Origin: Ianthella basta
Lineage: Eukaryota > Porifera > Demospongiae > Verongiida > Ianthellidae
DNA: 64,000 nt
Reading direction: 5' to 3'
Assembly: GCA_964019415.1 (NCBI GenBank)
Contig: OZ025885.1
Coordinates: 1,850,351-1,914,350 of the forward strand
Shown here: piece by piece, positions 1 through 64,000 of the stretch
How positions within the stretch are numbered: the first letter of the stretch is position 1
Layout: every line of letters starts with the position of its first letter
Notes under the pieces: model-generated
Seen by the model: only the letters and a program-made list of their open reading frames with translations
Databases searched by the model: none
Told to the model about the DNA's origin: nothing
Made by a program: the position numbers and the translations under genes

Positions 1-22
1 TATATAACCATCCCTAATGCAG

Positions 23-3000
23 TCTGGGTGAGAAGAATGATCTGTTTAATGAGGAGAACAATGAAACACAGGAAGTGAGTATTTCACTGTAGAGTACAGG
101 CTGCCCCAATTGAGCTCCATAGCTACATCCTATAGGTGGTCGCTGACATTTTGAGTAATGTCCTGGATGAAAGCAATGCGCCCGCATTTGAAGCTACGAC
201 ACAGGTAAGTTTTGCTTTTGTATTAATAGGCATTTCTGACTTGATACTGATAAAATCAGCAGTACTGAAGTGGAAGCTTGATGTGGTTGAGTGGTTTATT
301 TACTCTCATGCGCAGCTCATGTGATTAGTAGTAATAGTTTTTGTGTACCTTTTCATGGAGTGTTCATTGTGTTAACACAGTGCACCACTTAATTTGTAAT
401 ATGTATTATAATTATAGAAGAGCGCTGCTCCAGGGCCTCAAAGTGATGGAGCAACTTCTCCAGCAACCAGCATACTTCAGAGCACAGAACGAGTTGCCAA
501 TGTTATTGGAAATACACTATCAGTGAACAGGAATTCCTTCACCATATCTAGGCCAAATTTAGGTATGCAGTCAACGGTAACAGATCTGAGTACACAGTTG
601 TGCTGTAAGCTTAAATACTATTCTGAATTCCTCATCCCTCCAGCACTGCATGGCCAGCGACTCTCTTTTGGTGCAATTGGAAGAGGTTTTCAATTCCCGG
701 GTGCTGGTATCACTCTACCCAATTTCAGGCAGCCAGCAAGTATTCCTCAGATCCGTTTCCCTCCAGCTTTCCTGTTTGCTGCAAGAGGGATACCAATGCC
801 CACTGGTATGCACCTTGTGTGCATTGTGTGCCCATGAACTGAATGGTGATTCTGTGTTACAATTTCATGCATGCCATTGTGTAAATGAAATGACATGGCT
901 GTTACTATGGACACATCTGTAGATCTGCCTATGAACCATTATAATTGTGCATTGTGCAAATGAATCGTTTCTTTGAAGTTCCATAGTGTAGTTTCCGTAT
1001 TCATATTACGCATTTATTGGTATCCATCAGAAATGCCTACGGAGACACCCACAGTTATAACTGATCAGCCTACTGCAACCACAACTGACCAGCCAACCAC
1101 AGCCACAACTGACCAGCCAACCACAGTTCCTACCATGGCTATTGAAGTAGTGAATGTAGTGATGAACAACATGGAGAATTATCTGCCCACTGATGTGGTT
1201 GAACAAGATGATGATGCAAGGTATGTGATCATTGACCACTTACTTTTTGGTGATTTGCAACAATTTTATTGGTATGAATAATTTCTGTTTTCATGAAACT
1301 ACTTTAATACAATGGGTCCATCACCTTGATATATTGTAGCATTATGTATTTCACTGATGAAGAGCAGCTCTACATATAGTGGTCCAATTCTAATTTGCGA
1401 CGCTCTCCTGCATCATTGATTACAGTTATCTCTTTAAGTACATTACTAGAAAGGACTGTGGAAAATTTTCAACAAATTATTCATGCTCAAGATGACCTAC
1501 ATAGACACATATATTCCATTCTTGGGTGTAGTGGCAGTGGTGCAGAGGAGGTCAGTCCTGCCAGTCGAGTGTTCTCCAGTCAGATTCCTGGCTACGATGG
1601 AGGAGAGGTGGACACCAACGAGACTGTGGAAATCATATTCCCTCTTATTGTAAGAATGTGTATATACAATAATTAAGTTGCTTACTTATTTCAGTTCATA
1701 CTGCCGGTATAATCATCACGAGTTCTAGAAAGTACCTTAAATGATTATTGTCAAAATCAACGAGCATGCAACTTCATAATTCATTATCCCGCACAGGAAA
1801 GAGTAAATAATCTCACTGTTCCTATTGGGAGAAGGAAGCTATTCCGTTGTGCCTTCTTCAACTTCAAAGGAGGAGCCAATGCGACTGGAGCATGGTCCTA
1901 CAGTGGGGTGAAGACCAGTGTCATCAATGACACTCATGTCCGCTGCAATTCCTCCCATTTGACCAGCTTTGTGGTTCTGGTCAGTGTTGTCAACGATCCT
2001 GGATCAACAGTGAGTTTGATATAGTATGAAGTTAGTGGAGTGCATGTGAACCTTAGCAGACATTACTGCAGGGTTGTCCCATTCTTTTAGTCTTTTCTAC
2101 TCTATGTACATGTGCCACTATGATTATGCTTGCAACAATATGTACAAGTCATGTCAAGTGATAAATTATCTCTTGTATTCTTCTTGTTCCTGCAGACTCC
2201 ATTGGACTACATCACATACATTGGCTGCAGCATTTCTTTCATATGCTTGCTTGCCTCCATTGCATTCTTCTTGTCATTGAGGTACGGTTAGGTCAATTAA
2301 TAGTTACAAAGCTTGAATGTTGTGCTTTCAATAGCTAGGATTCATGCATAATATTCATATCACTACAGAAAAGAGTTGATTCAGAAGGTCCACAATTTTG
2401 TCCACCTCAACCTATGCATTGCTCTTTCCTTGGGACTACTCTTGTTTCTCACTGGAATACAAACAGCCACAGCCAATGTTGTAAGAGACAGAGGCCATCA
2501 CCATTCTTATGCTTTCTTGATTTAAGAATTATTCTAAAGAAAGCATTACTTAATGGCCTTTCTGCTTTCCACTAATCTCTTTACTATAATAGTTTGCGTG
2601 CAAAGTTATGACGGCTTTGCTGCACTACTTCTTCCTGGCCACCTTCACCTGGACACTGTGTGAAGCTGTCCTCATTTATGTTCTTCTGGTGAAAGTGTTT
2701 GGAGCCAATGACAAAAAGTGGATCTACCTCTATCTGGCACTGGGATGGAGTGAGCTTGTACCCATCACACTATTGCATTGTGTAAATAAGAGTGTTTCGA
2801 TCAGCAGTAGTCCTTTGAAGTCTTACATGTAAAGAGTATACATGGCTTACAGTATAGTAAAATTTGCTGTTATGTGTATAGGTATTAACTCACATGCATG
2901 CTCTTCCATTCCACATAAATTCACAGTCAGACTAGATGGAACTAAATTAATAACTAAACAGGAAGAGGGGATTTGTGAGCAATGGATGTGAACTTGAAGC

Positions 3001-5659
3001 ATAATAATTATACTGTAGATGCCCTGTTCCTGCTAGCAGCTATTGTTATGTACAGCAGTATACTTGTATAATGCAATGTGCCTTTCTCATAATTTGAGTG
3101 TGATAGATGATTCTCTATTTTCCTTCACTCAGTTCCACCTATCCCTGTTGTGGTGATTACTGGAGGAATGAAACACGAAGAGTATCTGATTAGATCCACT
3201 TATGATCACAGCAGTCCAAATTACAACATGTACAAGGCGTGAGATTCATACTACATATCCATACAGTGAATATTTGTTTAACTGAGTGAATAATTACAGT
3301 TTATATTCTAAATAATTCCTACAATTTCTTCATTTCAGCTGTTGGTTGCCTACACATCAAGGAGTGATTTATGCTTTCGTTGGACCAATGGTGGCTATAA
3401 TTCTGGTATGTATAATATCAGCTTGCTCTTCCCCTTAAAATGCAATAGATACTTCACATCTGACGCTGTGACCTGCACACTGTCATCATAATTAGATTTT
3501 GAGAATGCCCATTTCTCTGATTGAACCTATTTTTCATGCTTCGGAGGAATTTGCTATCAAATAATGATTATATTCAATTCTATTAGTAATACGTGTACTT
3601 GTCCAGCATTTCTCAAGAGGTGTACACCACTGTGCATACCTTCGTAACACCAGATACACCTGGAATCAGAGTCTATTAGCTACTTGTGTGGGTTGGCAAT
3701 ACACAATGAAGAGTCCATCATTGATCTTGAAGCAGATGACCAGAGCATCAAGTTATCAGTTTAATAAGAGATCTGTCTCATCCAAGTTGAATTTTACAAA
3801 GTGTATACCTCACATTTCCTAGTATCTACATCTAACCAAGTCTTCTGGAGACTGGTCGCTGCATGACTTCACCACATGTGGCTCATACACTTGCTTGTGT
3901 GGTTTATTTGATTTGTATTTACACATACTGTAAATGGCTAATGAGTATACATATGCATTGTGTGCCTGTAGATCAATGCTGTACTGCTGACTATCAGTTT
4001 GGGGTCACTAGCTAAGTCTCAGTGGAGCAAGAAGTCCGTGCTAAAGTCTGAGACAGATGAAACGAGACAGCAGCTCATGGAAGTGGGCAAGTAAGTGCAA
4101 ACATTTGGAAACATGGATGGCATAAATTTCACAGAGGTTTATGTGAGAATTTAAGAAAAATCTTCCATGATTTCAGCAGAGCACTTCAGTCGCATACACA
4201 CCAGAAACATATCCTGTGATTTTCCTGTGTACCACTCAAACATGTCCTTCCTTCTCCCCATAAAGGCGCCTGTTTAAGGCTACCCTCATCCTTGTTCCCC
4301 TCCTGGGTTTCACCTGGATCATTGGACTGTTTGCAGTGGGGGAGGAGGGAAGAGTCTTTGCCTACCTCTTTGTCATTGCCAATGTGTTCCAGGTGAGCTA
4401 TTGACCAATTAACACTCAATCTCCTGCATAATTATGCATCACTACAAGGCATTAAAGCTAGTTTGTCTTACTATGCATGTTGCATTCTTGACTGTTGATG
4501 ATTATTCCTGAAGTGGGGTCAGAAAGTGTGGTGAAGAGTCTAAATTGTTTCGTCCACAATCAGCTACATATAGCATACATGTTAGAGCTCTAGAGCCTTA
4601 TAGATAGTTCCTTCCATTCCAGAGGACTTCAATTGTGCAAGAGAACCTTGGTCACTGCTGTCCAGCTGTTGAATGTTAATGTGCATTTTGTATAAGCACA
4701 AACATAACAGGAAGCATGAGAGAATGATGATTGTCTTCAATTCTTCTCTATGTATTTTAGGGAGTGCTCATTTTCCTTCTTCATGTTGTGAGGCATGAAA
4801 AGGTGTATGGAAAAATCAAGAGCAGACTTCCCAAGTGCAGGAAGCGGGTCAGTATTAGCACAATTCATTCCTGATTAACTTGGCATGTGCTTCCAATACA
4901 ATGTTGGTGGTGTATTACAGCAAATATTGCATAATCGATCTTACTTTATTTGACATAATTATTATATTTCATCAAGTTTAGGTGTCCATCACCACTGGAA
5001 CTGCATCAGCCACAAGTGAGCTATACTATTCTATGGGACAGGCAGCCATAGAATAATGCAGAATGTCATACTGTTGCTGCGATGTTAACTGGCTAATGCA
5101 CATCAATATGTGTGACGATCGATGCATGGGTGGGTGGTGTATCTAAAAAAGACAGACTATATCATGATGCAGGTTGTTATTACTCTCTTACTCGTGTAAT
5201 CATGTAAAAAGGCTCACATGCCTAAATGTGCATCATCTCGCTATGCTATTCACAGAAACCACTCCAACACACTCTGCCAAATCTGACTGGGCTGACAGCA
5301 AAAAGAGCAGCAGCTTTGCAGCAGAATTTGAGGCCTTAATTGAGTTTGGGCAGAAGAAAGACGAAGACGCTGAGAGCATTAGAGAGGGTGATCTGGAAAT
5401 GAAACTCACCACCATTGATGAAAAGGGCGAAGATACAAAGGATGACATTGACAAGCCTACTGCAGTCACCAATACCTCCTTTGGACAGGATGATGTCATT
5501 GTGGGAGCCGTTACTGAAGATGAGAAGAGCAAAGTTGAGTACACTGAACCGAAAGACAAAGACAAAGATGAATTTGGGTTAACCACCACTGCAACCACTT
5601 TTGGAGTCCAGAAAGATAGTGAAGCTGCCAATGGCAAGGACAGCAGCGAGGGCAACTAA
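23..5659 (+). CDS. Gene A: adhesion-type GPCR, 5' part outside window
   Basis: This is the 3' part of a GAIN/GPS seven-helix adhesion receptor of the plasma membrane. Exons read from splice sites: 23-74, 136-204, 418-562, 644-805, 1031-1220, 1532-1649, 1797-2009, 2196-2281, 2369-2480, 2593-2749, 3133-3238, 3339-3405, 3972-4090, 4266-4392, 4761-4847, 4982-5015, 5256-5659. They join in frame to 748 residues plus a stop. The order is rest of GAIN, GPS exon (HLT at 1956-1964), TM1 to TM7, then an acidic Ser/Thr/Lys-rich tail. Family hallmarks include CWLPTHQGVIYAFVGP before TM5 and LLGFTWIIGLF in TM6. Exon sizes match genes B and C almost exactly, and even the introns align. Ligand and G protein are unknown. 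The missing start probably lies just left of the window. Confidence 0.93.
1031..1220 (+). other. GAIN-domain exon of gene A with Thr/Pro repeat linker
   Basis: The exon begins with a Thr/Pro-rich stretch containing three TDQPT-type units (about 1060-1130) and continues into the conserved segment VVNVVMNNMENYLP. The corresponding exons of B (22079-22241) and C (43157-43310) have shorter, different linkers. In D the linker is absent and this exon is fused to the preceding one (61979-62267). The linker is probably O-glycosylated and lies inside or beside the GAIN fold. Confidence 0.7.
1797..2009 (+). other. GPS exon of gene A
   Basis: This 71-codon exon carries the GPCR proteolysis site. It has a first Cys in CAFFNF, the WSYSGVKT segment, a Cys in VRCNSSHLTSF and the HLT tripeptide at 1956-1964. 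Cleavage would fall between Leu and Thr, giving a tethered agonist starting TSFVVLVSVV. Only two of the usual four GPS cysteines are present: the GC of the standard motif is GV here, and the CxC before HLT is reduced to one Cys. Confidence 0.85.
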
Positions 5660-5972
5660 GGAACTTGGTGTAGAGACATTATATCGAATAGCAAGTAACG
5701 GTTTCTACTAATGTGTGTGAGACATGTAGGTTTTAAGATTCTCCTAGGCTATTGAGTGTGGATTTAACAATAATTGGTAAATATGTAATACATGATCATT
5801 TTGTATATGCAACTTAAAATGATTTGCTTCTATAGATGTGTGTGACTATAATTATAGAAACAGCTGTTTTGCGGGAAAGATTATAATTATATGCTTGTGT
5901 CATTGATACATAGCTGCTGTAAAATATATATCATACATTTATTATAATGGAATTCAGAATTGTGTAATTATG
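5660..5972 (+). other. 3' flank of gene A, shared with B and C
   Basis: AT-rich sequence following the stop codon. It aligns with 26722-27030 after gene B and, less well, with 47821-48070 after gene C. The alignment with B stops at about 5972, where the SRCR fragment begins, so this point is a rearrangement junction. I saw no canonical AATAAA signal. Confidence 0.55.
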
Positions 5973-7433
5973 GTATAGGACCTGGGTAGCAGCTGGGTGA
6001 GTATATACCTCTCATATAATTATATGAAGATGACTATAATGATGACTGTTGACATGCAAGTTTGTGCAACAGAATGGAGCCTCAATTGCATGAATGATTG
6101 CTCAAGTGCACACGGTAATTGCTTCTGTACGTAGTTCTGCCATCGTTAACTTTCCTGTCAATATTGCAAGATTTGGTGTAAGCTGCAGTGGAGGAGAAGA
6201 GAGGATAACAGATTGTAGCATTGTGCAGTCTTTAGGTTCATCTTGCCCCCAAAACAATCAGTTCCATCTCAATTGCTGTAAGCCATGGCCAGTCACACAT
6301 TGTGCTATCCAATTTTGAAACAAAACTACACAAAAATCTATTATTTGTTTTTTTACCAGCAACTTCATTGTCTGCTGCATTGTACGGAGCAGTAACATTG
6401 ACGGGTGGGGGAGGAGCCAGTGGAACTCTGGCAGTGGAAAAAATAGGTTCCTTGTGTGACACTCTTCTCAGCCGTGCCACTGGTGATGTGGTGTGTAGGC
6501 AGATGGGGTACCAGGGTGCTCGGGCTGTGAAGAAAGGGTCATTGTAAGCAACATTGCACCTTTCTGTCATGTTGTAGGTGTTTCTACAGTTCATCATTGC
6601 ATTGCGTTAATTTCCATTTTTTCGTCAGCTATGGGATGCCTGCTTTGAGAGTGACAACTTCTGTAGTTTGCACTGGAAATGAACAACTTTTGACTTCCTG
6701 TCAGTTGAGTGCCTGCTCAAATACTGCAGCAGCTGGAGTTCAGTGCAGTAAGTACTTAGTTTAGTATATATTATGATCATTACTGTACATGTGCAATGTT
6801 AGATGTCATGGTGTATATGTCACTGGTCATGAGACCTTGTTTGAGTTAGTCCTGAACATTATTAAATTAATATGAGTGACAATTGACTTTGAGCCTGTAC
6901 TTGTGCCACTAACATTCCATATGCACATGCTGCAGTAACAGTACATGCGCAACTTGCCACATGTAGCTAGTAGATCAGTCCAAATTAATGTATAGCAAGG
7001 TACAGTGGAACTTTCTAAGATTGCCGCAGTGTTAGGCAGCCACCTCTCTAAAATAGCCAACCTCCCGGGACCCAAATAGCACAAAATTAAAGCGTAGCAG
7101 TATCTTTCTGTAGAGCAGCCACCTCTCTATATATAAAAATCGTTCGAACTGGCCCAAAGGTTGCCCTGTATAAGAGAGTAGCTATTTCCATTGCCAATAC
7201 TAATTAGTGGTATAAATAATAATTTTGTTTGCTATTATTATTAATTATTTCTTCTTATCACAGTGTCGTCTAATGGTGGTACAGTCAGTGACATGGAAGA
7301 CAATCATATGCATACTTTAGGCAGTTTGGCGGAACTTGCTGGCATTCTGTTGCTGTTCCTGCTTGCACTCAGTACTCTGACCATTGTTGTTGTTGTAGTC
7401 CTACGTCAAAGGATCACCGCATCCAAAAGTTAG
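5973..7433 (+). pseudogene. SRCR single-pass membrane receptor fragment
   Basis: The first 30 bases match the end of the SRCR3 first exon of gene C (near 32498-32514). Three exons with intact splice sites and phases follow: 6135-6277 (second half of an SRCR), 6360-6543 and 6629-6747 (a full SRCR). They are homologous to 32654-32796, 32881-33064 and 33148-33266 in gene C. Exon 7264-7428 then adds a short stalk and one strong transmembrane segment (AGILLLFLLALSTLTIVVVV) followed by basic RQR. Reading on gives a stop at 7431-7433. A further open frame at 7592-7717 with several Tyr codons could be a former cytoplasmic tail, but it does not join in phase. No signal peptide or start exists upstream because gene A's 3' flank abuts. 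I read this as the 3' end of a type I SRCR receptor left by rearrangement. Confidence 0.65.
7001..7185. repeat. Possible short inverted-repeat element
   Basis: This segment begins TACAGTGGAAC and ends with a rough inverse of it (GGTTGCCCTGTA). Inside, the phrase GCCACCTCTCTA occurs twice. It resembles a dispersed MITE-like repeat inserted in the intron before the TM exon of the SRCR fragment. The terminal match is imperfect, so the family assignment is weak. Confidence 0.35.
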
Positions 7434-7717
7434 TGTGAATTTGAGTTGACATCCATGCTAAAGCATGCCAGTTAAATTATTGTGCTACTTGGTCAAATTT
7501 GTATGTGAAGTTAATTTCAATAGGTGACTATTCATTTTACACCATCTCTCTATAATTATAGATTAATTTTGTAGATACTAATGCAGGGTAGTGTGTTGGG
7601 GGACCATATGTTGAGATGGACCTGAGTTACAGAGATGGGCCTCACTATGAATGTCTCGACCATGTCGATCAGGATATTGGAATGACTGTGTACCCAGCCT
7701 ACCAGCCAGTGGTTTAA

Positions 7718-9018
7718 CTTACAGTGCTAGCCATGCATAACAGGATCTTAGTCTTCAGTGTAGTGCTACAGATGTCAGAATTGTAGAGCATTTCTATATA
7801 ATTATATGCACATGAACAGACTGAGTGTATTCCATGCATTTTTATTATAATAATGGTATGTTCATGCATATTGCTTGTAAATCAGCTTGAAACAATATAG
7901 ATGTATGTTACTCTGTATTGAGGATTCAACACTTAATTCAGCACTGCATGCAGTACGTAATTATTGAAATTTATAGCATACAGTATTTATATAGTGGTAC
8001 TGTGACACAGGTGCATGATTGTGGTACAAAAACAATGATGGCAAGTAAGTATAGTTCACAGTAATACTAAACTATCAAAGGTAATTATAACTTGATCATT
8101 TATGCCTTGACTGGTGAAGATCTGTGGCAGTATTTAGACCACATTCATGCCCATTACATTACTCACTGTATAAAATTAAGTTTATGCACAATGCATGACT
8201 TACAATCTGAAGTGTGAGGTAGTATTGCTCAGCCGTATACAGAACCAAAATTATATTAGTAGAGCTATAATTATATATATATCACCTTCAGTTAGTGCTA
8301 CACACTTGGCATGATTTACATATATCCCTAAGCATGCATTAGAAGCAATAATAGTAATCTACACACTGAAAGAGACACTGAACTTAAAATTTGCTTATTC
8401 TACATCTAGCTATGGATATATACAAGCAAGCATGTCTGAGAATGATGTACCTTTGTAATGTTCTGTCCGCTTTTGCACTACTTCCAAAGGCAACAGCCAA
8501 CTTTATCACTCAATCCAAACATTACAAGTACAGAGTGCAACAGTTCTGGCATAGAATATATAGCAGCTCCATACAAAAGAACAAAGGTGGAGGCATAGGG
8601 CCTGAAATCACTAGTAAGCTAACTGTTGTGCACCCTAGTAATATAACCATACTACAAGTATAATTATACAAATTAATTATTGCTACTTCAAGAGTATAAT
8701 GTCACACTGCGTGGCAAGGTTCCACACAATTTGCATTACTTCAGTCAGTAATCACGAAGGTTGGTACTGGTCACAGACTATAAATATATTGGGAGTGCAC
8801 ATACATGTTTACGTATAGCATATGCCCTGTATCATCTCAAGACCCAAACAGTCTTCTGCAGCTGTTTCTTGTAGCTACAGTGTTATATCATAATGTACAT
8901 ACCTAATCAATTTTTACCTTTTTAAATTTTGCCGAGTATATACAGTGCAAGTTAATAACTAAGATACACCATACTTCACACATGAAGACTTATGATGAAT
9001 AATCCAATGTAGTACAAC
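7718..9018. other. Intergenic AT-rich spacer
   Basis: About 1.3 kb of low-GC sequence rich in ATAATTAT and TGCATGCA words. I found no convincing exon, RNA gene or repeat here. A 90-codon open frame at 8391-8663 resembles nothing I know and lacks coding character. Confidence 0.5.
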
Positions 9019-9080
9019 AAGTATTTCGAGTTAAAAAACTCGTGGGGCGCCAGGGCGCCCCTGAACCTCGAACTACTTGC
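9019..9080. repeat. Short palindromic element with GC-rich core
   Basis: Imperfect inverted arms CAAGTATTTCGAG and CTCGAACTACTTG flank a GC-rich core containing GGGGCGCC and GGCGCCCC. Together they can fold into one hairpin. It looks like a small foldback or MITE-type insertion in AT-rich DNA. Confidence 0.45.
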
Positions 9081-9440
9081 TAGCAATTTTCCCATGTACA
9101 TTCAGTAAATCAGATAGTTGGGGGTACAGTATTGTTGCTGGCCTGAAAGATACATCAAGACACACTAGACCGTTGGGTTTGCAAGAGTTTCAGGTCTCCA
9201 GAGCAGCCAGTCATATCCAGTGAAAGCATCCCTACCAAACTGTCAAATGTTTGCCTACTGCTTTTTTTATCTATATGACATTCTGAATGAGCAATTGTTA
9301 CTTTGTGCCTGGAGGAGGAATGTGCTGGCTAAAAGGCTACCCTATGATGACTATATGAGCGAATCATGGCTATAATTATGTGTCATGACTCGCTGGTCCT
9401 CCATTATTGGCCTACGGGTCACTAGACTTCTGTTGTATTT

Positions 9441-10275: not shown

Positions 10276-10280
<5 letters not shown>

Positions 10281-10358
<78 letters not shown>
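10281..10358. repeat. (CA)n microsatellite
   Basis: An uninterrupted CA dinucleotide run of about 39 units in the spacer before gene B. It is likely length-polymorphic. Confidence 0.95.
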
Positions 10359-10359
<1 letters not shown>

Positions 10360-28500: not shown

Positions 28501-28506
28501 TTAACA

Positions 28507-49660: not shown

Positions 49661-49669
49661 CAGCTGGGC

Positions 49670-54000: not shown

Positions 54001-57000
54001 CACATTTGTGTCTTCACTGTGTGCCCTAAGAAACATCATAACTCATCGAATACTTCAATACACCAAGTTGGATTCATTCTTGCCATTGTGTCTTGATTCT
54101 TTAAACTCTTGACAAATATAGTAATTTCACAGTTAATATTTGGTGACTTCATTGTGGTAACTAGACTCCTTCCACTGCTCCCCTTTACACACGCTTTGTT
54201 TTTGATGATTGAGTATGCTGGTTGAGCGTAAAAGAAAACAGTGACCCCTCAAGGTCTATGTTTCTAATTGAAACTGTAATTGACACCTAACAGTTTTGTA
54301 CTACCCGTGAGTGTCTGCACTCAATCTGTAGTGCAGTAGCTATTAGCTGCAGTAGCTATAATTAGCTAGCTGATGCACACCATTTGAATTAACTACAAAA
54401 TGAAAGAAACTTAGAGTGCCAAGAAGCCAGTATTGCCTGATTGAAGGAAGTGCAAAGTGCACACATTCTACTTCTTCAGTATTCCACTGAAAAGGGTATA
54501 TAAACATAATTATATAAATCGTATCACAGGAGACCTCGCTATATATGATTGTCCGTCTAGCTCTCTCACAGTGCTGCAATGACTATTCATTGCCCAATAT
54601 TAACCAAATGATAACAGTTTCACTTTCACTCACTACATGAACATCTTCATTCCTGCTTGGTAATGCCAGCTAGATCAAATATTTCTAGACAATCAACCAC
54701 TGAGTAGCGATCACATCAACTTCACTACCATTTCACGAGCTGGACTGCTCCAACACAACATGCAGCCCAAGTGAACCTCACACAAGGAGTGCACACCCTC
54801 CGCCATGTAGACACTGAGGCCACACTAGGTGTGGTCATGTATGAGTTTGCTACTGATGTATTGTATGGGCACCCTGGAGGTCTGAACATTAATTCAGGTA
54901 AATGTATGCACTGTATACAACATACCTCTATTCAGCATATTGTGTGATCCTCTGATTTTAACTAATACCACATGACATTTTAGTACATAAGTAAGGCAAA
55001 CATTTTGGGAGAGCCAGACATTTCTCCTCATGTGTATCCATGGAGTCAAAGCCAATGCATACTTTGGTAAAAGCATTTGCAATAATTTGCATAATCAGCA
55101 TATACAGTGTGTGTATATAGCCTACAGATTTTAATTGTGCACTTCTCATTTTTTAATCATCAGTTAATCAGAACAGATGCTTCTCCAATACTAGAGGTCA
55201 TCCTTGCGAATCTTATACACGTTAAATGACAGTTAGATAATGTTATGTACATATCTCATTCTGGGTCCTCCTGTAGGCCTTTTCCCCAGCATCTCATCTT
55301 CAAAAATCTTCCTGGTTGTTCTTTCCCTACTCATCTCTTCCATTCTAGCCTTCCACTTCTCCTTCCTGGTCTTTACCATATCTAAAGCACTCGCTTGACA
55401 TAGCTTCTCCCTGACGTCCACACTCCTTACCCTATCCAGTCTGTTTACTCCTTCGATCCTCCTCAAGACATTCATCTGAGTGGCTTGTACCCTAGACTGT
55501 AGATGCTTTGACAACCACCACGTCTTACAACCATACAATAGTGTGGGGATCATTGCCGCATTCACCACTTTCAATTTTGTGCTCCTGCTCAGTTCTTTCT
55601 TATTCAACACTGTTTCGTTCAAGCCCCCAATAACTCATGTTGCACTCCTAATCCTTGCCTCCACTTCTTTCTCCATCCTTCCATCACTACTAATTATCAC
55701 ACCCTAGTACTTTATTTCATCTACCTGATCTATTTCCTTCTCACCAATTTTAACTTCACAATCCTCACTATTCCTACCCACCCTCATCACCTTAGTCTTC
55801 CTCCAGTTCACTTTCAACTCCCATTTGCTCAACACATCGCTCATTACTTGCAAATATTGCTGAAGTTTCTCCACTGATTCCAACATTACCACCATATCAT
55901 CTGCAACGAGGAGTACTCCTACATCCCCAATAGACAACCTCACTGCGCACCGAAACTGCCTTTTTGCCTCCCTTCACCGTGTCCAAAACACATGAAAAAG
56001 CCATGGAGACAAGGCCCAACCCTGTCTCACACCTCTGTACACACCAAACAGCTCCGATTCCGTTCTCCCAACATTCACCCTTGCCCTACCATCCACATAC
56101 AGTGCCTGGATCACCCTAAGTAACTTCCTCTTCACTCTATACTCATCAAGCACTTTCCAAAGCTTCTCCCTACTTACACTGTCATATGCCTTCTCTAGAT
56201 CCACAAATGCCACCTATGCCTTCTTGTTTTTCTCAGTTGTTTAACTGCAAAATCTGGTCATTGCATCCCCTTCCAGCCCTGAAACCTCCTCGCTTGTCCA
56301 TCACTTTGTCAACCGTCAATCCCTTCACTCTCTCATTCAATACCCGTGTAAACACCTTGCCAACAACACTCATTAAGCTAATTGCCCTTTAGTTCATGCA
56401 ATCCAGCCTGCTGGCCGTCTTGTATACTGGCACATGCAATTACTGCATTCTTCCAATCACTAGGGGCCACCCCTCTCTTCATACTATCTTAAACACCTTT
56501 CATTTTTCATTGTTTTTTATATGCAGTCACCCTGCCTTCCATTGTTGGCTTCAAAAGACCCTATCAGCAAGTGAGAGAGGAGGAGGGAGCGATCTTAATC
56601 TGTCTATTGAGGAGGAGAAACCTAGACCGAAATGACACAGTCATGGTGTTTACCCCACAGCAATGGATGGGAGAGGAGCTGGCTACAGGTATAATTATAT
56701 TCAACAGCAATGATCTAATGAAAATTAATGCTATGTATGTACGTAGTTTATGTCAATACACCTTGTTGGCTTGCATTTAATAACTTAAGAGTATAAAATG
56801 ATAATGGAATATATACAACCCAAGTTTAACAATGCCGTTTATTATTAGGTATCTTTTCATGTTATAAATCAAATTACAATGCGGAGTATTTCCTCCATCT
56901 TTTTTGTGCAGGTGATTTAGACTATGCTAATGTTAGTGTGAACGTTACATTTCATGTGGGTGTATCTGAGGCATGCTTTGAGGTTGAAATTTACATGGAT

Positions 57001-60000
57001 GAGGAACTGGAGTGCACTGAGCGCTTCCGTCTGAAGATAATGGACACTGGAGAAGGCATAGAGGTGGACAAGGACTCAGCAGTGATAGTGGTTGAAATTG
57101 TGGACACAAATTCCTGTGAGTGGCATGAGCAGCATTTCTCATGTGCAATGAATTGTGTGGAAATATATGTCATCATGTACAAACCAATGGCATTCACACA
57201 ATGAACAGTATTATAATATTGTTTCTTCTTGTGCTGTGTTTCTGTCCAAAATGCTGTTACATCAGCTTGCCATCCAAACTTCCTCTTTATGGAGACGGCA
57301 ATCAACTCACAAGCGAAGGTCCCTTGCTCCCAACTGGATGGCAGCTTCCTTCCTAATGGGATTGTGACTTCCATGTGCACAAATGGCAGCACCTGGGGCC
57401 CTTTGGACATGTCTCAGTGCACATTCAGGAATGATGCATCTGTGGCTGCAGTGGCTGTGATAGAAGTAATGCCATTGGTAGAAGACTCCTTCTGGAACAT
57501 GGAGGTGAGAATGGATAACATTTGTTCAAGATTAATTTTTCTTCATGCACGTGCAGCTAATACAATTTCTATAATCTACACACAACAATGGCTACAATTG
57601 TAATACTTACATATGTACACAGAACACACTAATGTACTAAATAGAAAGTCAGCCAAAATTAAACATTACAGAAAGATATATTAGGAAACACTACATGCCA
57701 AATGTTGTAGGGGCTACTCAAATGCACCCATCTACATGCATTGACTACATATGGTAAATATAAAGTTAATTATTTTGACCTTCTCTGACCACTAAGGGAT
57801 CTGGTACTGGAATTACTGAAGAGACAAAGCAGGCAAGATATGTTACCTCATGCTCAATACATCAACATGTAAAACTGAAATACCCGGTATTCTTTTCACA
57901 AACAGGCTATTTCCAGCAGTTATGTGAAAAATACCACTCTGCTAAATGAGTACTTAACATGTTACGGTGCAAGAGTGCAGGTGTATTCCCTTAGGCTCAA
58001 CTCAACAGTTGCTGCAGAAGAACTACAAGGTGATCTTAAATTTGATCCACCTGCCATGGCCACTAGAGTTATCATAACCAGGAGAGCAGGTATTTTTAAG
58101 GCACTCTGCACTACAGCCAATTGCTTGCATATAATTATGCAGAAGTCTTTCATTGTGCTCCCAGCGCAATTTCTGCTCTTCTCCTCCAGATTTTTGCAGT
58201 TGCTGTGATGGTGCAGCAATTGAACTATCAGTGAGGCTAATCAAGACAACAAACAGCTGTGCAGGGAACTTTGAGGCACCAATGGCTTGCAACACCTGTC
58301 TTAAACAAGTGTCACATGTGGGATACATATAGGAGGTCAAGGTACACTGGCCTTGACAGCCATGTTAATTTCTCTTGTGTTATGCTCTTCCTAATACACA
58401 GTGTCAACAGAGATTCAGTTCATTGGATGGCCTGTGCTTCTTGGACACTGATAGAGATGGAAAGCCAGACTATAACGTAAGACAGTGGTATATATATATA
58501 GTGTCTACAGTACAAATTACATATGAAACTGTTTAAATGAGTAGTTCTCAACTTGCTTGAAATTCATGCCCTAACTGCAGCACCAGATTGGTGTGAACAC
58601 CTTCCTTTATCTCTATTAGGATCCTTGTGTGGGATGCTGCTTGCCAGACTTTGATCTTGCATTCCAGTGGAAGCGCACAGCCCACAATCGCTTAGCTGAG
58701 GCCCTTTGCTCCAAGATCCATCCTAGTTTCACAGACACCAAAGTGCGAAGGAGGTGTCAACCAGATGACTCCTGGGAGCCAGCAGACATCAGCTCATGCA
58801 CATTCAAGAACAACACTAAGAACCCCATCGTCATACTCACAGCAAGCCTAGTTGTCAGTAGGGAGCAGGATAGAGCAAAAGTGATTTTGGACATACAAAG
58901 AACATTTGAAAAGCAGGTCAGAAACATTTTGCTTAAAACGATTTGTAATGTTGCACTATAATTATATAGTATTGCAAAAGGTTTCACACTTCTCCATCAT
59001 ACATAGCTGCCCAACATCACCAAAGGAGCATTGCCAAACAGCACTGCAGCTGTTTACAATATCACAGCACAGGAAACAACCTCTACCTTTAGTAATGGAA
59101 CCACTGTGTCAATCATTGTGTTTGTGGTTGAGTTTGAATCAAGTGTTGAACTGAGGGAGGATGTTTCCAATGTGAAAGAAGAAGCTACTTCAAGTGGTGT
59201 TTCTTATGAGTTTGTACGGTTGGTAGCTATGAAGCCTTCAGGTGAAGTTTTTGACAAGGCAGCATTTGTATAGATGCACCATTATTGTGTTCATCTGTTC
59301 CTGTTTACATACTTGGTGGAAATTATTGAACAATCGAAATGTTCATTTGTTTGTAGAGTCCTGCTCCTGTGAAACAAGCAATGGACAACTTGTTAGTCTC
59401 TGTATTGGCACATCCAGTAGCCCATGTGACTGCAGTGACATTGGATCATGCAAAGTGAGCTCACGCTAGGGTAGCAGGCACATTATTATCTAGCCTGCTC
59501 ATATACAGTACGTACATATTTGGCTTCACACTGACCCTCAATGTTTCACACTGAAGTGCATAGATCCATATGTGAATGACGCTGATACAGGAAAATGCTC
59601 CCTGGATACAGATGGAGATGGAAGACCAGACTACAGGGTCAGTGGTATTAAATCTAAAGCATGTCACATGTACAATAGCATATAACCTAGAATGTTATAT
59701 ATATATATGTGCACATTTGAATGATAATTTGGTTGTTCAGCTTTGATTGTACTGGTACTAATCCAAATGAGGTACACATTAATATTTGTTAAAGATGAAT
59801 GTATATTTGCAATACATCATGCCGGTTCATTGTCCAAAGCATTGGTGTACTGATATACTTACAGGATGACTGTCCAGGAGTGTATGGTACAGAGTCAAAT
59901 GGCTGTCGTAAGTCAAAGATATATACAGTACTCTCGATCATGTAGATTTGATCTGTATGATGCTAACATTTTGAGGAGCATAATTGCTAATATTACTAAT

Positions 60001-63000
60001 ATGTAATAGATTTAATTCTTTATCTATGTCAGATTTGGAGCTTTAGCCTGCATTGCGTATATTTGCAATAGCAGCAATTGTTTATTGTTGTTAACAAGAA
60101 AGTTTAGATACAGCATAGAGAATAATTATATTGATAAGCAATAACACTAGATAAATAGTGTCTGATTCATGCATACAGAGTCTTTGCGTATTGCATATTA
60201 TCCTATGCTGTTCACTGGAGACTCCATTCTTGTGCTCCTCCAGCTGTTGCTATATCAAGCACACTAGCTGTCTTTTGTCCAGCTGAAGAGGACTCTGTAT
60301 GGAGGATCCAGTGGCCTATTGCTGCTTCAAAATCTACTCAGTCTGTTCGCTGTCCAGGAGAGGGGGACACACCTGGTTTAGGGTTGGCTCACAGGAGCTG
60401 TCTGGCTGGTGGTGTGTGGGGACCAGTTGATGTCCGTGATTGTGAGTCATTGGCTGTCAGAAATATCAGAATTCAGGTATGTGTTTATCTGCTTGGCTAC
60501 GACTATCCCATAGTATAAGCTACGTGTGCAAAAATATAACTCCAGTTAAAATATTCAATTGTGCGAGGAGAAAGATTCTATGTGCAAGAAGGATATAGAC
60601 TGCCTATGATATAGTCTATTCAATTTGCTATGTAAATTATAATAATGTGCATGTAAGTACTATAATGGAATCATACTTGTGCCTTAGCGTGTGGAGAATG
60701 CTTACATTTGGTGGAAAACGTGAAGAGTGTGAACACTTTAATAACTGCAGATTTCATTAATTCTGTGTATTATGCTGAACTGTAAGAATGATTTGATCTA
60801 AAAATTGATACGAAATGTGAAATTTAGAATGTATGCAACAGATGTCTCAATTTCAGTCATTTTCAATGTGCACAGACGAGAGACCTGAACCTGTATTTGA
60901 ACTTCACAAGGCAAAATGGACTTCCACTTTTGCAGCAAGAGAGGAGAGCAGTTGTGAATTTATCCTTAAATCTCAGACAGACATTAAACCAGTCAGTGTC
61001 TATGCAGGGAAACCTCAGACTGTCTATTTATCCTCAAGACTTGAAGACATCCACCAATCTTCTCACACTAATAGGAGAGTTAGTTAATATTGCAGTATTT
61101 TGCACTCAGCTATGATCCGCTTCAATAAGTCATGGCATTGCCTTAATATCTCCCATTTATAGGCTTGGTGATGATAACAATCTATTTTCAAATTTGACCA
61201 TGACTGACACAGAACAGCAGAAGGAGGTAAGTTCTTTGAAGTATATTTGCTCTTTGCATGCTGCTATTGAGTCATTCTTCTAAATTTCTTTTGTAGGTAG
61301 TAGTTGACATTGTGGATAGCCTCCTAAATGAGAGGAACGAACCAGCCTTTGCCACAACTTCAGAGGTATGAGAATAAATAAAAGAATAGTATGTAGTAGC
61401 ATAGATCATATAAAACCAAACATAAATACTGTATGACAGTGCATTCCTTGATGTCACAGCTGTCTTGGCACAAGTCTTAAATGATACTCTTTTGGTTGTG
61501 GCACTGCATGAAATGCAATGTCATAACATATGCATGAAATAGTTTCACGAAATTAAACTAAGTCACTCTTGCACATTATTATATGCAATGTTGGTATGTA
61601 TATATAGTATTGCCATTTACCTGTCTTGGTTGAACTTATACTTCTGTGTATCACAATCTATTTAGCAGTAATGTTCAGTCTGCTCATATGCGATTTGCAC
61701 CTATACTACATTTAGGGTACTAATGTGGATGAAGACGCTGCTGGCCCTCCAGCCGTTCAGATTCTAGAAAGCACTGAGAAAGTGACTAATGCAATTACTT
61801 TATCTCTTTTAAATGATAATTCCAATGTCACCATCAACAGGCCAAATATTGGTAAGATGAATAGTGTGACATCATCTATAGAGTGCTACCCAAAAACACT
61901 CTTGCTACCATCCAATAGATTATGAGCAGGCTGTGAGTTGATATAATGTTGCTTTATTTCTTGTCCACTTTGTTGTAGCTGTACAAGAGCAGTCACTCTC
62001 CTTCAATCACCTTCATGTACAAGGTGGTATCCAGTTCCCTGGTGAAGGAGTCATGCTGCTCAATTTTAATGAACCTTCTCTGGTACCAAACATTAACTTG
62101 CCATCTGATTTCATTTTTGCTGCGAGGGGAAGGGAATATTCGGTGGGAGTGAATAGAACAGAAGACAACAGTGAAAGGGTAGGGGTGGTGAACACTGTCT
62201 GGAATAACATTGAGAATTACTTGCCAAATACAGTGATTGAGGAAGGCATGGATAAAGAGAGTTTGAAGTGAGGAACCAAAAATTCACTGGTGCATGTGTT
62301 TGTTACTGACAAATTGCAATATTTATTACAAATGTGACATGCACAGTGAAGGAAATCTGATGAAGCCACAGCCCCTTCCTGCTAGCCTTGTTGTCTCAAG
62401 TCAGATACTAGGATATGGTGGTGGAGCGGTAAACAGCAATGCTACAGTGGAAATTACATTTCCAGTCAAGGTGAATAGTAGGCAGATATTCAATGACAGC
62501 TGCTAACTACCTTTCCAGAATCTGGTAGATAAATTCATGCAGTGATATCATAATTAATATGATATTAATCTATCTAGTAATTAATATGTGTTATTGTTTT
62601 CTTTATAGCCTGTGTCATATCCCCGCTAACATTCTGCAGAAGGAGATCAGAAACATCACTGTGCCACCTGGCAGAGTGAAGCAATTGTGTTGTGCCTTCT
62701 TCAACTTTACAGGAGGGGCCAATGGGACTGGAGGGTGGTCCTACAGAGGTGTGAGGACTGAGGTCATCAATGACACTTATGTCCGCTGCACTTCATCTCA
62801 TCTAACCAGCTTTATGGTTCTGGTCAGTGTTGTACCACACACAGATTTGGTGAGTGTAAATTATAATTTATAATACATCTAATAGCTGTCAATAGTTGCC
62901 ATGCAGCCTAGAAATGTCACCTACAAACAAACTTAAAACTATTAGAAAGGCACTATTATCTTGAAAGTGAAGTATCATTGACTACATTACATAAGAGGCT

Positions 63001-63874
63001 TATTACAATGTTGGATGTACTACACATTCAGTATTGTACTCATTTACCCAATACTGTACATTTTCTACACTGGAATCCATCTGTATGATAATCACATACA
63101 ACTTTTATCCTTCTCTTTTAGCCACTCAGTCCTCTGGACTACATCACATACATTGGCTGCAGCATATCTTTCCTTTGTTTGCTTGCTTGCATTTTCTTCT
63201 TCATTTCACTGAGGTACGTGAATTATACTATGATGAAGATGATTTTATACATTTACCTATCATAATGCCAAGGAACAAATCCCTTATGTGCATGGATCAT
63301 TAGTTAATCTTTCTATTATAATACTAAATAGAAATGAGTTGATGCAGAAACTCCACAACTTTGTCCACCTCAACCTGTGCATTGCTCTTTCCTTGGGACT
63401 ACTCTTGTTCCTCACTGGAATACAGACAGCCACAGGCAACGCAGTAAGTGACCAGTTGCCACCAACTTGCGATTTACTGGCAACTAAGCTGTTTACAATC
63501 TTGCCCATGACAGAGTGCCTGTAAGTTTGTGACAGCCCTACTGCACTACTTCTTCTTGGCTACCTTCACCTGGACACTGTGTGAAGCTGTCCTCATTTAC
63601 ATCCTTCTGGTAAGAGTGTTTGGAGCCAATGATAGAAAGTGGATCTACCTCTATCTGTCCTTGGGATGGGGTAAGTATCAAGTTTTGAGTTTCTAGAAGT
63701 TGCCCTATCTACTTGTATATCTGTTCCTTACCCCTCCCCCCCCCCCCCCCCTCCCCCAACACATGTAGCCCTCCCCATTCCCATTGTGGTGATATCAGCT
63801 GCTGCTGGACACGATTACTATCTCATCAGGCACTCTTTCAATGAAAGTAGCTCTCACTTTAACCAGATCAAGGC
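51008..63874 (+). CDS. Gene D: Calx-beta/EGF adhesion-type GPCR, 3' end outside window
   Basis: 26 exons visible, 1334 residues: 51008-51068, 51416-51550, 51620-51895, 56527-56688, 56912-57115, 57266-57504, 57906-58089, 58190-58308, 58402-58476, 58620-58916, 59007-59241, 59357-59454, 59557-59637, 59865-59907, 60244-60476, 60876-61078, 61163-61226, 61297-61365, 61716-61851, 61979-62267, 62347-62470, 62640-62849, 63122-63213, 63332-63443, 63514-63670, 63769-63874. Order: signal peptide 1-20, Calx-beta, EGF (to 157), Calx-beta (to 279), three HormR modules (to 814), GAIN/GPS (to 1179, HLT at 62799-62807), TM1 to TM4; the rest lies beyond the edge. It is clearly more diverged from A, B and C than they are from each other, especially in the first GAIN exon. 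Two GAIN exons of A-C are one exon here. The distal ectodomain has no SRCR, CCP or lectin. Confidence 0.88.
51416..51895 (+). other. Gene D first Calx-beta plus EGF
   Basis: 51416-51550 gives the first half of a Calx-beta domain (VSFSDSDYTVRESRGFVPVT). 51620-51895 gives the second half (EPDETFRINFLPPVNQPEFA, VTIKDKC) and runs straight into an EGF module with CQNGGTLDSSVCNCTC. Confidence 0.82.
51896..52082. other. Start of gene D large intron
   Basis: The 4.6-kb intron (51896-56526) is mostly repeats, listed separately. Parts at 52620-53800 and 53930-55230 are AT-rich and show nothing recognisable. An open stretch at 53146-53240 ending in GTAAGT has no similarity to the receptor and no homolog in A-C. 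Confidence 0.5.
52083..52350. repeat. Tandem repeat, period 75-79 bp, about 3.5 copies
   Basis: Copies of a unit containing ACCTCTCTAGTGAGGACA, GTGCCTACTGTCCCAGC and GTGTACAAAACTACCTCT. Units start near 52104, 52179, 52258 and 52334. The first two are nearly identical and the later ones diverge. Confidence 0.85.
52500..52596. repeat. (GAA)n-rich purine microsatellite
   Basis: A run of mostly GAA/AAG triplets with a few interruptions. Open frames reading Lys/Glu or, on the other strand, Phe/Ser are artefacts of it. Confidence 0.95.
53822..53920. repeat. Minisatellite of family 1, second array
   Basis: Contains GCCAGCCAATTAGATAAATA, GTGCCATCCATTGAGATAA and CACCGTCCATTTAGATAACG, matching units at 28507-28642. 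Its presence in both a spacer and an intron shows it is dispersed. Confidence 0.65.
55233..56480 (-). mobile_element. LINE (non-LTR retrotransposon) fragment, antisense to gene D
   Basis: Minus-strand reading gives reverse transcriptase pieces in order. 56395-56220 gives RAISLMSVVGKVFTRVLNER and GGFRAGRGCNDQI. 56213-55977 gives FVDLEKAYDSVSREKLW and GVRQGWALSPWLF. 55943-55704 has the catalytic VADD box. 55622-55233 gives the usual end LLYGCKTWWLSKHLQ, RRIEGVNRLDRVRSV and GKRPTGGPRMR. No endonuclease domain is present, so the copy is 5' truncated, with several frameshifts and stops. The A of the usual FADD or YADD box is retained, but the QGC Cys is Trp. The family may be of CR1/L2/RTE type; not determined. 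Confidence 0.88.
56527..57115 (+). other. Gene D second Calx-beta domain
   Basis: 56527-56688 encodes YQQVREEEGAILICLLRRRN and VMVFTPQQW. 56912-57115 encodes DYANVSVNVTFHVGVSEACF, ECTERFRLKIMDTGEGIEVD and VIVVEIVDT. Both are phase 1-1, giving a complete but diverged Calx-beta fold. Confidence 0.75.
57266..60476 (+). other. Gene D triple HormR / TSP3-like module region
   Basis: Same exon order and phases as in B and C (239, 184, 119, 75, 297, 235, 98, 81, 43, 233 bp). HormR-like 1 ends WGPLDMSQC. HormR-like 2 keeps CQPDDSWEPADISSC. HormR 3 keeps RIQWPIAAS and GVWGPVDVRDC. TSP3-like motifs are FLDTDRDGKPDYN/DPC and SLDTDGDGRPDYR/DDC, the second a textbook Ca-binding sequence. Confidence 0.75.
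57505..57905. other. Gene D intron
   Basis: AT-rich 401-bp intron between HormR-like 1 and the following alpha/beta exon. Nothing further seen. Confidence 0.5.
60876..62849 (+). other. Gene D GAIN domain and GPS
   Basis: Seven exons. The first (60876-61078) is alpha-helical but shares little sequence with A-C. Exon 61979-62267 combines two exons of the other genes and lacks the Thr/Pro linker. The GPS exon 62640-62849 reads CCAFFNFTGGANGTGGWSYR then RCTSSHLTSFMVLVSVV. Confidence 0.85.
63734..63760. repeat. C-tract next to splice acceptor
   Basis: A run of about 17 C inside CCCCTCCC sequence, seven bases before the acceptor of gene D's TM4 exon. It acts as the polypyrimidine tract and is likely length-variable. 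Confidence 0.8.
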
Positions 63875-64000
63875 GTGAGTCATTGCCTGTTTATAGTTCA
63901 GGGTTAGCAGTCATTCAAAATGTAGTAAGGGAAACACTCATTACAACCAAGTCAAGGTGTGAGTGTCAGTGTAGACTGGCCCGTGGCAATGATTCATTTA

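Follow-up and report, generated by a model that had tools for sequence, protein, structure and literature searches.

Tandem adhesion GPCR genes of a sponge with a constant signalling base and probably replaced outer domains

Four tandem receptor genes with a shared base

The window (the whole 64-kb stretch of DNA analysed) contains four adhesion GPCR (aGPCR) genes, A to D, arranged head to tail on the + strand, as shown by self-comparison and exon models (Table 1). They most likely constitute a tandem family in which the base has been kept and the outermost 5′ exons have been replaced by recombination between introns of the same phase. The exon models are hand-curated from the sequence, the splicing is predicted rather than taken from cDNA, and one haplotype with four gene copies makes up the whole sample. 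A sequence-only reading had proposed a tandem aGPCR array with a common base; self-comparison, exon models, Pfam and alignments bear this out for B, C and D. For gene A, the GAIN end, GPS, 7TM and tail support membership, and its HormR region lies before the window.

Table 1 Features of the array. Phases in parentheses are those of the exon starts and ends.
Feature	Position	Strand	Evidence or remark
Gene A, 3′ part only	23-5659	+	17 exons; 5′ end cut off by window edge
A: GAIN end, GPS, 7TM, tail	23-5659	+	exon models, Pfam, identity to B
SRCR relic: end of SRCR3 first exon, SRCR3b, SRCR4 a and b	5974-6757	+	SRCR 2.2e-15; 85.3% identical to C 32492-33276
Block in B unit standing where C has 33277-36392	6758-16700	+	TM exon, lectin exons, CCP1, CCP2, palindromic repeats
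Exon with one hydrophobic TM helix, after relic (1-1)	7264-7428	+	hydrophobicity; in-frame stop just after if unspliced
Gene B	11128-26721	+	33 exons; first exon provisional
B lectin exon: first jacalin-like domain, start of second	11128-11922	+	donor 11922 in top 0.1% of GTs; start uncertain
B exon completing second jacalin-like domain	15051-15254	+	Pfam Jacalin match (205-323) extends across the two exons
B CCP1 (15810-16004), CCP2 (16371-16565)	15810-16565	+	tandem duplicates; Sushi, 2 stretches; 89% DNA identity
B EGF-like exon	17053-17142	+	homologous to C 36738-36827; EGF 20.1 bits, cut-off 21.5
B base: HormR1, spacer, TSP3-like, HormR2, Cys-rich/TSP3-like, HormR3	17518-20672	+	10 exons; HRM, 3 stretches, 1.8e-17
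B: GAIN region, GPS (22849-23061), 7TM (23251-25914), tail	20830-26721	+	stop 26719-26721
Gene C	29162-47820	+	44 exons
C candidate signal-peptide exon (0-1)	29162-29228	+	hydrophobicity script only; donor score 5.2
C five SRCR domains, two exons each (1-2, 2-1)	30655-34957	+	Pfam SRCR, 5 stretches, 2e-73
C CCP exon (35804-35983), EGF-like exon (36738-36827)	35804-36827	+	Pfam; EGF below cut-off
C 886-bp cassette, absent from B	37125-38010	+	CCP exon 37154-37330; Calx-beta exon pair 37536-37673, 37781-37978
C base: HormR1-3, GAIN, GPS, 7TM, tail	38060-47820	+	28 exons
Gene D	51008 to past window 3′ edge	+	25 exons modelled
D signal-peptide exon, Calx-beta on two exons, EGF-like stretch (by eye)	51008-51895	+	Calx-beta 4.8e-22
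D exon with second half of Calx-beta, before HormR1	56912-57115	+	Calx-beta 3e-6
D base: HormR region, GAIN, GPS, TM1-TM4	57266-63874	+	continues past window

Over aligned columns, introns included, identity is 92.7% for A-B, 80.0% for B-C and 49.2% for B-D; with gap columns counted, the values are 88.4, 53.0 and 24.1%. Positions 3-5973 of A are 90.8% identical to B at the DNA level over 6065 columns, introns included. Per segment, dS is 0.10-0.15 for A-B (0.06 for the GPS exon alone), 0.14-0.21 for the B-C base and 0.5-1.9 for comparisons with D, an older copy. The dN/dS ratio ranges from 0.02 to 0.62 over the compared segments. A pseudogene array is rejected because dN/dS is below 1 and the modelled exons keep open reading frames in A, B, C and D alike.

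An Rfam scan of the window gave no match and a tRNA scan (bacterial code) no tRNA, and none of 10 unexplained ORFs reached a Pfam cut-off (best, Involucrin_N, 15.3 bits against 27). In IMG/VR, four stretches fitted a pattern from the B 7TM and none was confirmed; in GTDB, two patterns from an alignment gave 88 stretches, none confirmed. A phage collection searched with 3 kb of B gave no match.

The constant base

The base common to B and C is composed of three HormR domains, a GPS with the motif HL/T, a 7TM domain and a tail. Pfam 7tm_2 matches B at 3.4e-51 and A at 4.5e-52, and Pfam GPS matches them at 7.4e-8 and 5.4e-8, respectively. The Pfam scan took in the GPS-7TM parts of A and B; the C base and the GPS-7TM part of D were placed by alignment to B instead, D only to TM4. 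Upstream of the GPS, Pfam HRM finds three stretches in B (1.8e-17) and two in D (6.8e-14), and 483 of 541 residues in the HormR part are identical between B and C. The sequence SSHLTSF, with the predicted HL/T cleavage site, is present at the GPS in 4/4 genes. In the 327-aa stretch before the GPS of B, the Pfam GAIN family gives no match at E 5, and only GPS matched. TSP_3 matches all fall below the Pfam threshold, a correction to the TSP3 part of the base proposed earlier. The ectodomain modules above Pfam cut-off, whose splicing to the base is predicted, are SRCR, Sushi, Calx-beta, Jacalin and HRM, with EGF below it.

The best PDB relative of B is ADGRL3 (7wy5; 5.8e-46), aligned through the GPS, the 7TM and the HLT motif. 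A secretin-type (B1) hormone receptor is ruled out by the GPS and the three HRM stretches in B; secretin-type receptors are not known to carry a GPS and have one HRM. As aGPCRs, the proteins would bind a surface or soluble ligand through their distal domains. The putative GAIN domain would self-cleave at HL/T, and ligand or pull would expose the putative tethered agonist (TSFVVLVSV...), so that different ligands would feed into one G-protein output.

The variable heads

Upstream of the base, the order in B is jacalin-like lectin-CCP-CCP. The two-domain lectin region matches Pfam Jacalin (PF01419) at 26 bits and 1.4e-5 against a cut-off of 22, and each half alone scores 15.3 and 15.6 bits. Of the two jacalin-like lectins and CCPs described by the sequence-only reading, the CCPs hold, and the lectins, which reach the cut-off only as a pair, are putative. 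A phmmer search of the lectin region against the PDB (E up to 1) returned four weak matches, none of them lectins; BLASTP of the two halves gave no match, and an AlphaFold model of the first lectin, made from a single sequence without alignment, has a mean pLDDT of 35.9 and is unusable. Splice scores in this head are weak at the acceptor 15051 (0.46; top 14% of AGs), the CCP1 donor (-0.35) and the CCP2 acceptor (-0.83). The search for a signal-peptide exon of B gave no convincing one, with weak candidates at 8442, 9385 and 9930.

In C, the order is SRCR x5-EGF-like-CCP. The proposed composition of five SRCRs, CCP and Calx-beta is confirmed by Pfam SRCR (2e-73), Sushi and Calx-beta matches, with EGF sub-threshold. 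The last SRCR exon runs in frame into an EGF-like stretch (read by eye). For D, Calx-beta (4.8e-22) is supported as claimed, and the EGF-like stretch lacks a Pfam match. A further signal-peptide-like candidate with a phase-1 donor is located at 55040; because of it, D could start there, without the exons at 51 kb.

In the final models, base exon phases agree between B and C in 28/28 exons and in 17/17 for A; D, which lacks one of the introns, keeps that order in its 21 base exons. When the units were chained independently, 22/28 base exons of B and 17/28 of C came out exactly as in the models, phase included, and 16 of these had equal rank in B and C; the remaining base exons were set by homology and phase, so the agreement is partly by construction. 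Distally, 5/5 exons of B are 1-1, C has five SRCR pairs (1-2/2-1) and five other non-signal exons that are 1-1, and 3/3 non-signal exons of D are 1-1, with the weak boundaries of SRCR1a, SRCR5a and the lectin start picked using phase. The matching phases and the distal 1-1 pattern noted before are thus present in the models, partly built in by phase-guided modelling. Of the D acceptors, 23/24 are AG; the modelled site at 60882 is not, the AG site being 60876. Patthy 2021 (PMC8001218) describes class 1-1 phases as usual for the extracellular modules that have been shuffled in animals; taken by themselves, the phases therefore do not point to an active exchange system.

Junctions and an SRCR relic between A and B

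Between B 6758-16700 (9.9 kb) and C 27900-36392 (8.5 kb), there is no DNA similarity beyond a 29-base match (E 0.002). Similarity changes abruptly at the junctions: in 50-base ungapped windows, identity goes from 34 to 94% at J1, from 26 to 86% at J3 and from 96 to 34% at J4, and at J2 from 90 to 22% (left) and 30 to 90% (right). J2, J3 and J4 fall in phase-1 introns, and J1 leads from intergenic DNA into an SRCR exon. Because only 1331 of 4912 bases in the relevant C stretch are exonic, intronic breakpoints are not surprising in themselves. The distal ectodomains, earlier called unrelated, are so for the B and C heads past those 29 bases; yet B 16701-17466 and C 36393-37124, EGF-like exon included, are 83.5% identical (26/29 residues of that exon), and Calx-beta lies next to HormR1 in both C and D. 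The view of exchangeable cassettes on one signalling base is supported, and the exchange dated and located, by the B-C base dS of 0.14-0.21, the non-homologous heads and the phase-1 junctions J2-J4.

The A-B interval contains, at 5974-7430, SRCR exons and a single-TM exon that were absent from the earlier reading. The relic SRCRs differ from those of C with a dS of 0.145 (dN/dS 0.38), comparable to the B-C HormR base (dS 0.147). A search for 5′ exons or a signal peptide of the relic found none, and the TM exon has no Pfam match; possibly it is the end of a 5′-truncated single-pass SRCR receptor. The A-B and B-C intervals are collinear in order and strand, and the former keeps a relic of the SRCR exons of C; the ancestor of B therefore very probably carried an SRCR head. 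A 5.5-kb deletion would have cut this head, and 9.9 kb with the lectin and CCP exons would have taken the place of 3.1 kb of C-type sequence (SRCR5/EGF-like/CCP), between phase-1 introns. The 886-bp CCP/Calx-beta cassette would have been lost in B or gained in C. In the whole history proposed, a unit of about 19-21 kb was copied head to tail. Purifying selection has maintained its 3′ part (EGF-like exon, three HormR, GAIN/GPS, 7TM, tail), while the exons at the 5′ end, which encode the outermost domains, were probably replaced via recombination joining introns of equal phase. Of this, the duplication, the constraint, the junctions and the domain content are read from the sequence itself.

Alternative readings of the heads

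The array could be a diversifying recognition locus, in which head exchange recurs and head content varies among individuals, for discrimination of self from non-self or of microbes. On our reading, three rearrangements (deletion, replacement, cassette) separate the B and C units while the base dS is 0.14-0.21, and SRCR, lectin, CCP and Calx-beta are domain classes that serve in animal recognition. In addition, PMC6208332 describes an incomplete aGPCR gene up-regulated by microbial patterns in one sponge and GPCRs down-regulated in another. However, comparable head modules are under purifying selection (dN/dS 0.30 for the EGF-like exon between B and C and 0.38 for SRCR; dN 0.079 and dS 0.201 for CCP1 versus CCP2 of B), and the four copies come from one haplotype only. 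We consider this reading rather unlikely, and the diversifying family for self or microbial recognition advanced from sequence alone remains hypothetical. Similarly doubtful is its germline form, in which one aGPCR base would be recurrently given new lectin, SRCR, CCP or Calx-beta heads via phase-1 introns and individuals or sister species would differ in the heads coupled to a common G-protein pathway. Were it true, germline shuffling at the locus would supply a recognition system with tethered-agonist GPCRs as its output, and the SRCR relic and single-TM exon after A, as a by-product, would indicate that heads also move to a single-pass base.

That some of the ectodomain exons form genes of their own is unlikely; these would be a secreted jacalin-like lectin with its end near 15268, an SRCR gene upstream of the C base or a Calx-beta/EGF-like gene upstream of the D base, and B, C or D would begin further downstream. 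Such a lectin gene is suggested by its reading frame, which reaches a stop 11 bases past the proposed donor, by an AATAAA at 15603 and by the lack of a firm signal peptide in B; for D, the candidate at 55040 lies inside its 5-kb gap. On the other side, a simple hydrophobicity script (not SignalP) finds no signal-peptide-like start in 15255-15830, 16005-17060, 33267-34410 or 34958-35810 and one weak start in 35984-36740. The donor 15254 (top 0.8% of GTs) and acceptor 15810 (top 0.9% of AGs) are compatible in phase, and the in-frame passage out of the last SRCR exon of C also argues for continuity.

An assembly artefact, with diverged haplotypes or collapsed repeats set side by side, is very unlikely: the units are very similar and sponges can be highly heterozygous, but divergence is 9-18% including introns, the heads differ, dN/dS is below 1, modelled frames are open and the flanks change sharply. 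Equally remote is combination at the RNA level, by read-through and splicing that would join any phase-1 head to a HormR1 exon downstream and give chimaeric receptors; in B, C and D, phase 1 marks both the end of the modelled head and the start of HormR1, but A, B and C possess separate bases and stop codons, and C and D their own signal-peptide candidates.

Comparison with known systems

Replacement of the outer exons on a kept base remains the reading that we favour. Shuffling of aGPCR ectodomains has been deduced from deep comparisons; here, different heads stand on neighbouring paralogues with a base dS of 0.14-0.21, and both the junctions and a relic of the former head can be read. The array is a direct system for asking how heads exchange, whether exchange continues in populations and whether aGPCRs served early animals in reading surfaces or microbes. 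Variation of heads among individuals would make it a new type of invertebrate recognition locus; with fixed heads, it would remain a well-resolved case of exon shuffling.

Among solved structures, latrophilin ADGRL3 is the closest through the GPS, 7TM and HLT motif, with no orthologue claim; it differs in its distal domains, which are lectin/olfactomedin, and in having one HormR. Sponge aGPCRs with HRM or SRCR are already published. Amphimedon queenslandica has 40 aGPCRs, at least eight with HRM, and two with multiple SRCR repeats that the authors call unique (Krishnan et al. 2014, PMC4302439), resembling the ectodomains here. The text of that paper and its Figure 4 legend (selected receptors) name no Calx-beta, Sushi, jacalin, triple HRM or common base with exchanged heads, and the word "tandem" is absent from the text. 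Choanoflagellate and animal aGPCRs (eLife 2025, PMC12716839) are likewise similar in having a conserved HRM/GAIN/7TM core and distal domains that vary, with Calx-beta and HRM among those listed. That module was deduced across deep time, whereas here neighbouring paralogues have readable junctions; "SRCR" and "jacalin" are absent from its main text. In the sponge SRCR superfamily, 158 of 296 SRCR genes are in tandem arrays, with duplication mainly at the gene level (PMC10855680). Its main text has no occurrence of "GPCR" and one of "7tm", whereas here SRCR exons stand on an aGPCR base and a relic precedes a single-TM exon. The heads also resemble class 1-1 exon shuffling in being built of phase 1-1 modules; PMC8001218, in its text, gives the general animal extracellular pattern, whereas here particular junctions are located. 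New relative to the earlier reading is the collinearity of A-B with B-C, with a relic of the SRCR exons of C in A-B.

Tandem array and gene models

The window holds four tandem plus-strand aGPCR genes (A–D), of which A lacks its 5' end and D runs off the 3' end. GC content is 39–42% across the window (4-kb windows), and the DNA is of animal type, modelled with GT-AG introns. Its source is probably a sponge, since HRM and SRCR-repeat aGPCRs are on record for Amphimedon (PMC4302439). DNA-level self-comparison of the window places the repeat units ~19–21 kb apart. The tandem array proposed in the sequence-only reading is real, and is now better documented by self-comparison, exon models and domain matches.

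Coordinates of aligned segments and features in the window (s, identity from DNA self-comparison)
Feature	Position	Counterpart	Remark
A and B units	A 3–5973	B 21086–27034	90.8% (s)
B and C units	B 17469–19912	C 38011–40460	87.7% (s)
B and C units	B 22830–26833	C 43816–47941	82–83%, in pieces (s)
D unit	57.2–63.9 kb	Other units	70–88%, mainly exonic (s)
Region with TM2 exon	D 63332–63670	A 2369–2749; B 23427–23807; C 44422–44807	
Head blocks	B 6758–16700	C 27900–36392	
SRCR relic	5974–6757	C 32492–33276	85.3% DNA identity
Return of similarity	B 16701	C 36393	Intron preceding EGF-like exon
Extra C segment	B 17467		886 bases
Stretch around C junctions	C 33148–38059		1331/4912 bases exonic
SRCR exons and TM exon	5974–7430		
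Tyr-rich ORF	7592–7714		
Palindromic element	12851–13078		Arms 101 bases
Palindromic element	13716–13805		Arms 36 bases
Palindromic element	14246–14371		Arms 34 bases
Partial CCP exon copy	36219–36331	C CCP exon	88% (s)
D 5' tandem duplicate	50111–50760	50805–51489	73% (s)
75-base tandem repeat	52084–52348		
AAG run	52492–52591		
Signal-peptide-like start	55040–55106		Phase-1 donor

Gene models were built by an exon-chaining script for each unit separately and then curated by hand. None contains an internal stop; A, B and C comprise 763, 1851 and 2240 codons (stop codon included in each), and D 1282 codons up to the window end. When chaining was repeated, 22 of the 28 exons of the B base (HormR1–3, GAIN/GPS, 7TM and tail) and 17/28 of the C base were reproduced exactly, phase included; 16 exactly reproduced exons share rank in B and C. 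For the remaining base exons, including those for C TM1 and TM2, placement relied on phase and on their homology to B. The matching exon phases claimed earlier do agree in the final models (B versus C, 28/28; A, 17/17; D, 21, with one intron fewer), but partly by construction, because the remaining exons were set by homology and phase. The phase regularity of the heads (distal ectodomain exons upstream of the base) is likewise partly by construction at the weak-scoring sites SRCR1a, SRCR5a and lectin start.

In Pfam, the two-domain lectin region of B matches Jacalin with 26 bits (cut-off 22; halves alone, 15.3 and 15.6), and B also matches two Sushi, three HRM, GPS and 7tm_2; its EGF match is sub-threshold (20.1 bits; cut-off 21.5). 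C has five SRCR (2e-73), two Sushi, Calx-beta (6.5e-18) and an EGF match under the cut-off; judged by eye, its last SRCR exon ends in an EGF-like stretch. D has Calx-beta (4.8e-22), half of another Calx-beta domain (3e-6) and two HRM stretches, with an EGF-like stretch by eye. Both TSP_3 matches (0.001 and 0.0027) are sub-threshold, and the tail has no Pfam match. The closest solved structure to the GPS–7TM part is ADGRL3 (5.8e-46), and HLTSF, the cleavage motif and start of the tethered agonist, is present in all four genes.

Age and constraint of the base

dN and dS of base segments, estimated by NG86
Segment	Pair	dN	dS
HormR base	B–C	0.056	0.147
GAIN-GPS	B–C	0.049	0.186
TM1-4	A–B	0.009	0.135
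TM5-7	A–B	0.003	0.150
Tail	A–B	0.056	0.099
Tail	B–C	0.087	0.140
TM1-4	C–D	0.143	0.603
GAIN-GPS	B–D	0.507	1.866

dN/dS lies at 0.02–0.62 in every segment comparison, and is highest in the tail (0.38–0.62). Intron identity over aligned columns is 92.7% for A–B, 80.0% for B–C and 49.2% for B–D (88.4%, 53.0% and 24.1% with gap columns counted). Together, these values indicate that A, B and C are, as judged from sequence, fairly recent copies under constraint, and that D is an older copy.

The TM2 exon of D is unusually similar to its counterparts at fourfold sites, which are identical at 14/15 to A, 14/14 to B and 16/16 to C in a post hoc test; for nine other D base exons compared, fourfold identity ranges from 1/4 to 16/21. 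Gene conversion of the signalling core is a possible cause. Because the intron after it shows no clear similarity, constraint on the exon itself is an alternative.

Replacement of the heads

The head blocks of B and C share nothing except a 29-base match (E 0.002). Each is immediately followed by an EGF-like exon and a base, for which B–C dS is ~0.15. Because block similarity is absent although the adjoining exons and bases differ by so little, the heads were replaced and did not just diverge.

The A–B interval is collinear with the B–C interval, and the 3' flank of A tracks that of B up to 5973/27034. There the relic begins, SRCR exons that correspond to C from the end of the first SRCR3 exon through SRCR4. 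Relic and C are identical at 133/148 amino acids (dN 0.055, dS 0.145), and their dS equals that of the B–C HormR base. At the left junction of the relic (J1), 5457 bases are absent relative to the B–C interval; in C this stretch carries the candidate signal-peptide exon, SRCR1-2 and the greater part of SRCR3a. Similarity between the B unit and C ends after 6757, a few bases inside the intron behind SRCR4, and the non-matching block measures 9943 bases in the B unit versus 3116 in C. We infer that the ancestor of B had an SRCR head. Alternatively, a separate copy of SRCR exons was inserted after A, but equal age and matching position would then have to coincide by chance.

Downstream of the replaced block, the additional bases in C carry one CCP exon along with two exons for Calx-beta. 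Calx-beta also precedes HormR1 in D, a hint that B may have lost it. By our own reading of the junction sequences, the joins show short matches: TGG at the first and ATGA close to that of the 886-base segment.

Behind the relic's SRCR exons lies a phase-1 exon encoding one TM helix, suggesting either a remnant of or a step towards a putative single-pass SRCR receptor that shares its SRCR exons with gene C. The Tyr-rich ORF downstream of the TM exon lacks a clean splice into frame. The three palindromes, possibly foldback mobile elements, belong to the replaced block, where they occupy the long intron that interrupts the second lectin domain. The partial CCP exon copy in C, whose frame runs to a stop, is dead.

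Limits on cassette exchange

Introns in the C stretch around the junctions are all phase 1, bar one inside SRCR5. With so few bases exonic there, breakpoints within introns are expected. Clean cassette exchange does not account for J1, where intergenic DNA is fused to the interior of an SRCR exon. Class 1-1 modules are common in animal extracellular proteins (PMC8001218). The phases permit the proposed exchange of cassettes without frame change, but are no proof of a dedicated mechanism.

It is unlikely, though made slightly less so by the signal-peptide-like start in the 5-kb gap of D, that some ectodomain exons, such as the B lectin, belong to separate genes. This start is a candidate alternative first exon of D that would drop its 51-kb exons. 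The first exon of B and the first half of the last Calx-beta of D were not found in the window. The same gap, from the EGF-like stretch to the last Calx-beta exon, holds the 75-base repeat and the AAG run. The D 5' duplicate spans the upstream region, the signal-peptide exon and the first Calx-beta exon, which hits a stop in the first copy.

Predicted mechanism and comparison with known systems

By homology with aGPCRs, in which this mechanism is established, ligand would be bound by the heads, the GAIN domain would cleave itself at HL|T, and the tethered agonist, once exposed, would activate the 7TM. A shared base under different heads would allow several ligands to feed a single output.

The three comparable head modules show purifying selection (dN/dS 0.30 for the EGF-like module and 0.38 for SRCR, relic versus C; dN 0.079 and dS 0.201 for CCP1 versus CCP2). 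This argues against fast diversification by point change, with module exchange left to supply the variety. The array may be a diversifying recognition system, as had been suggested, but this is a less likely reading; Hydractinia Alr and sponge aggregation factors are possible parallels.

What is new is that an entire head was exchanged recently while the base stayed conserved, and that the event is still readable. The kind of array is known in outline, from shuffled aGPCR heads and sponge HRM/SRCR aGPCRs. Among the papers listed in text searches of the open-licence literature, as judged from the starts of their abstracts, none describes such an array. In Amphimedon, some aGPCRs carry HRM and some carry SRCR repeats (PMC4302439), and the present array resembles them in its HRM- and SRCR-bearing aGPCRs.
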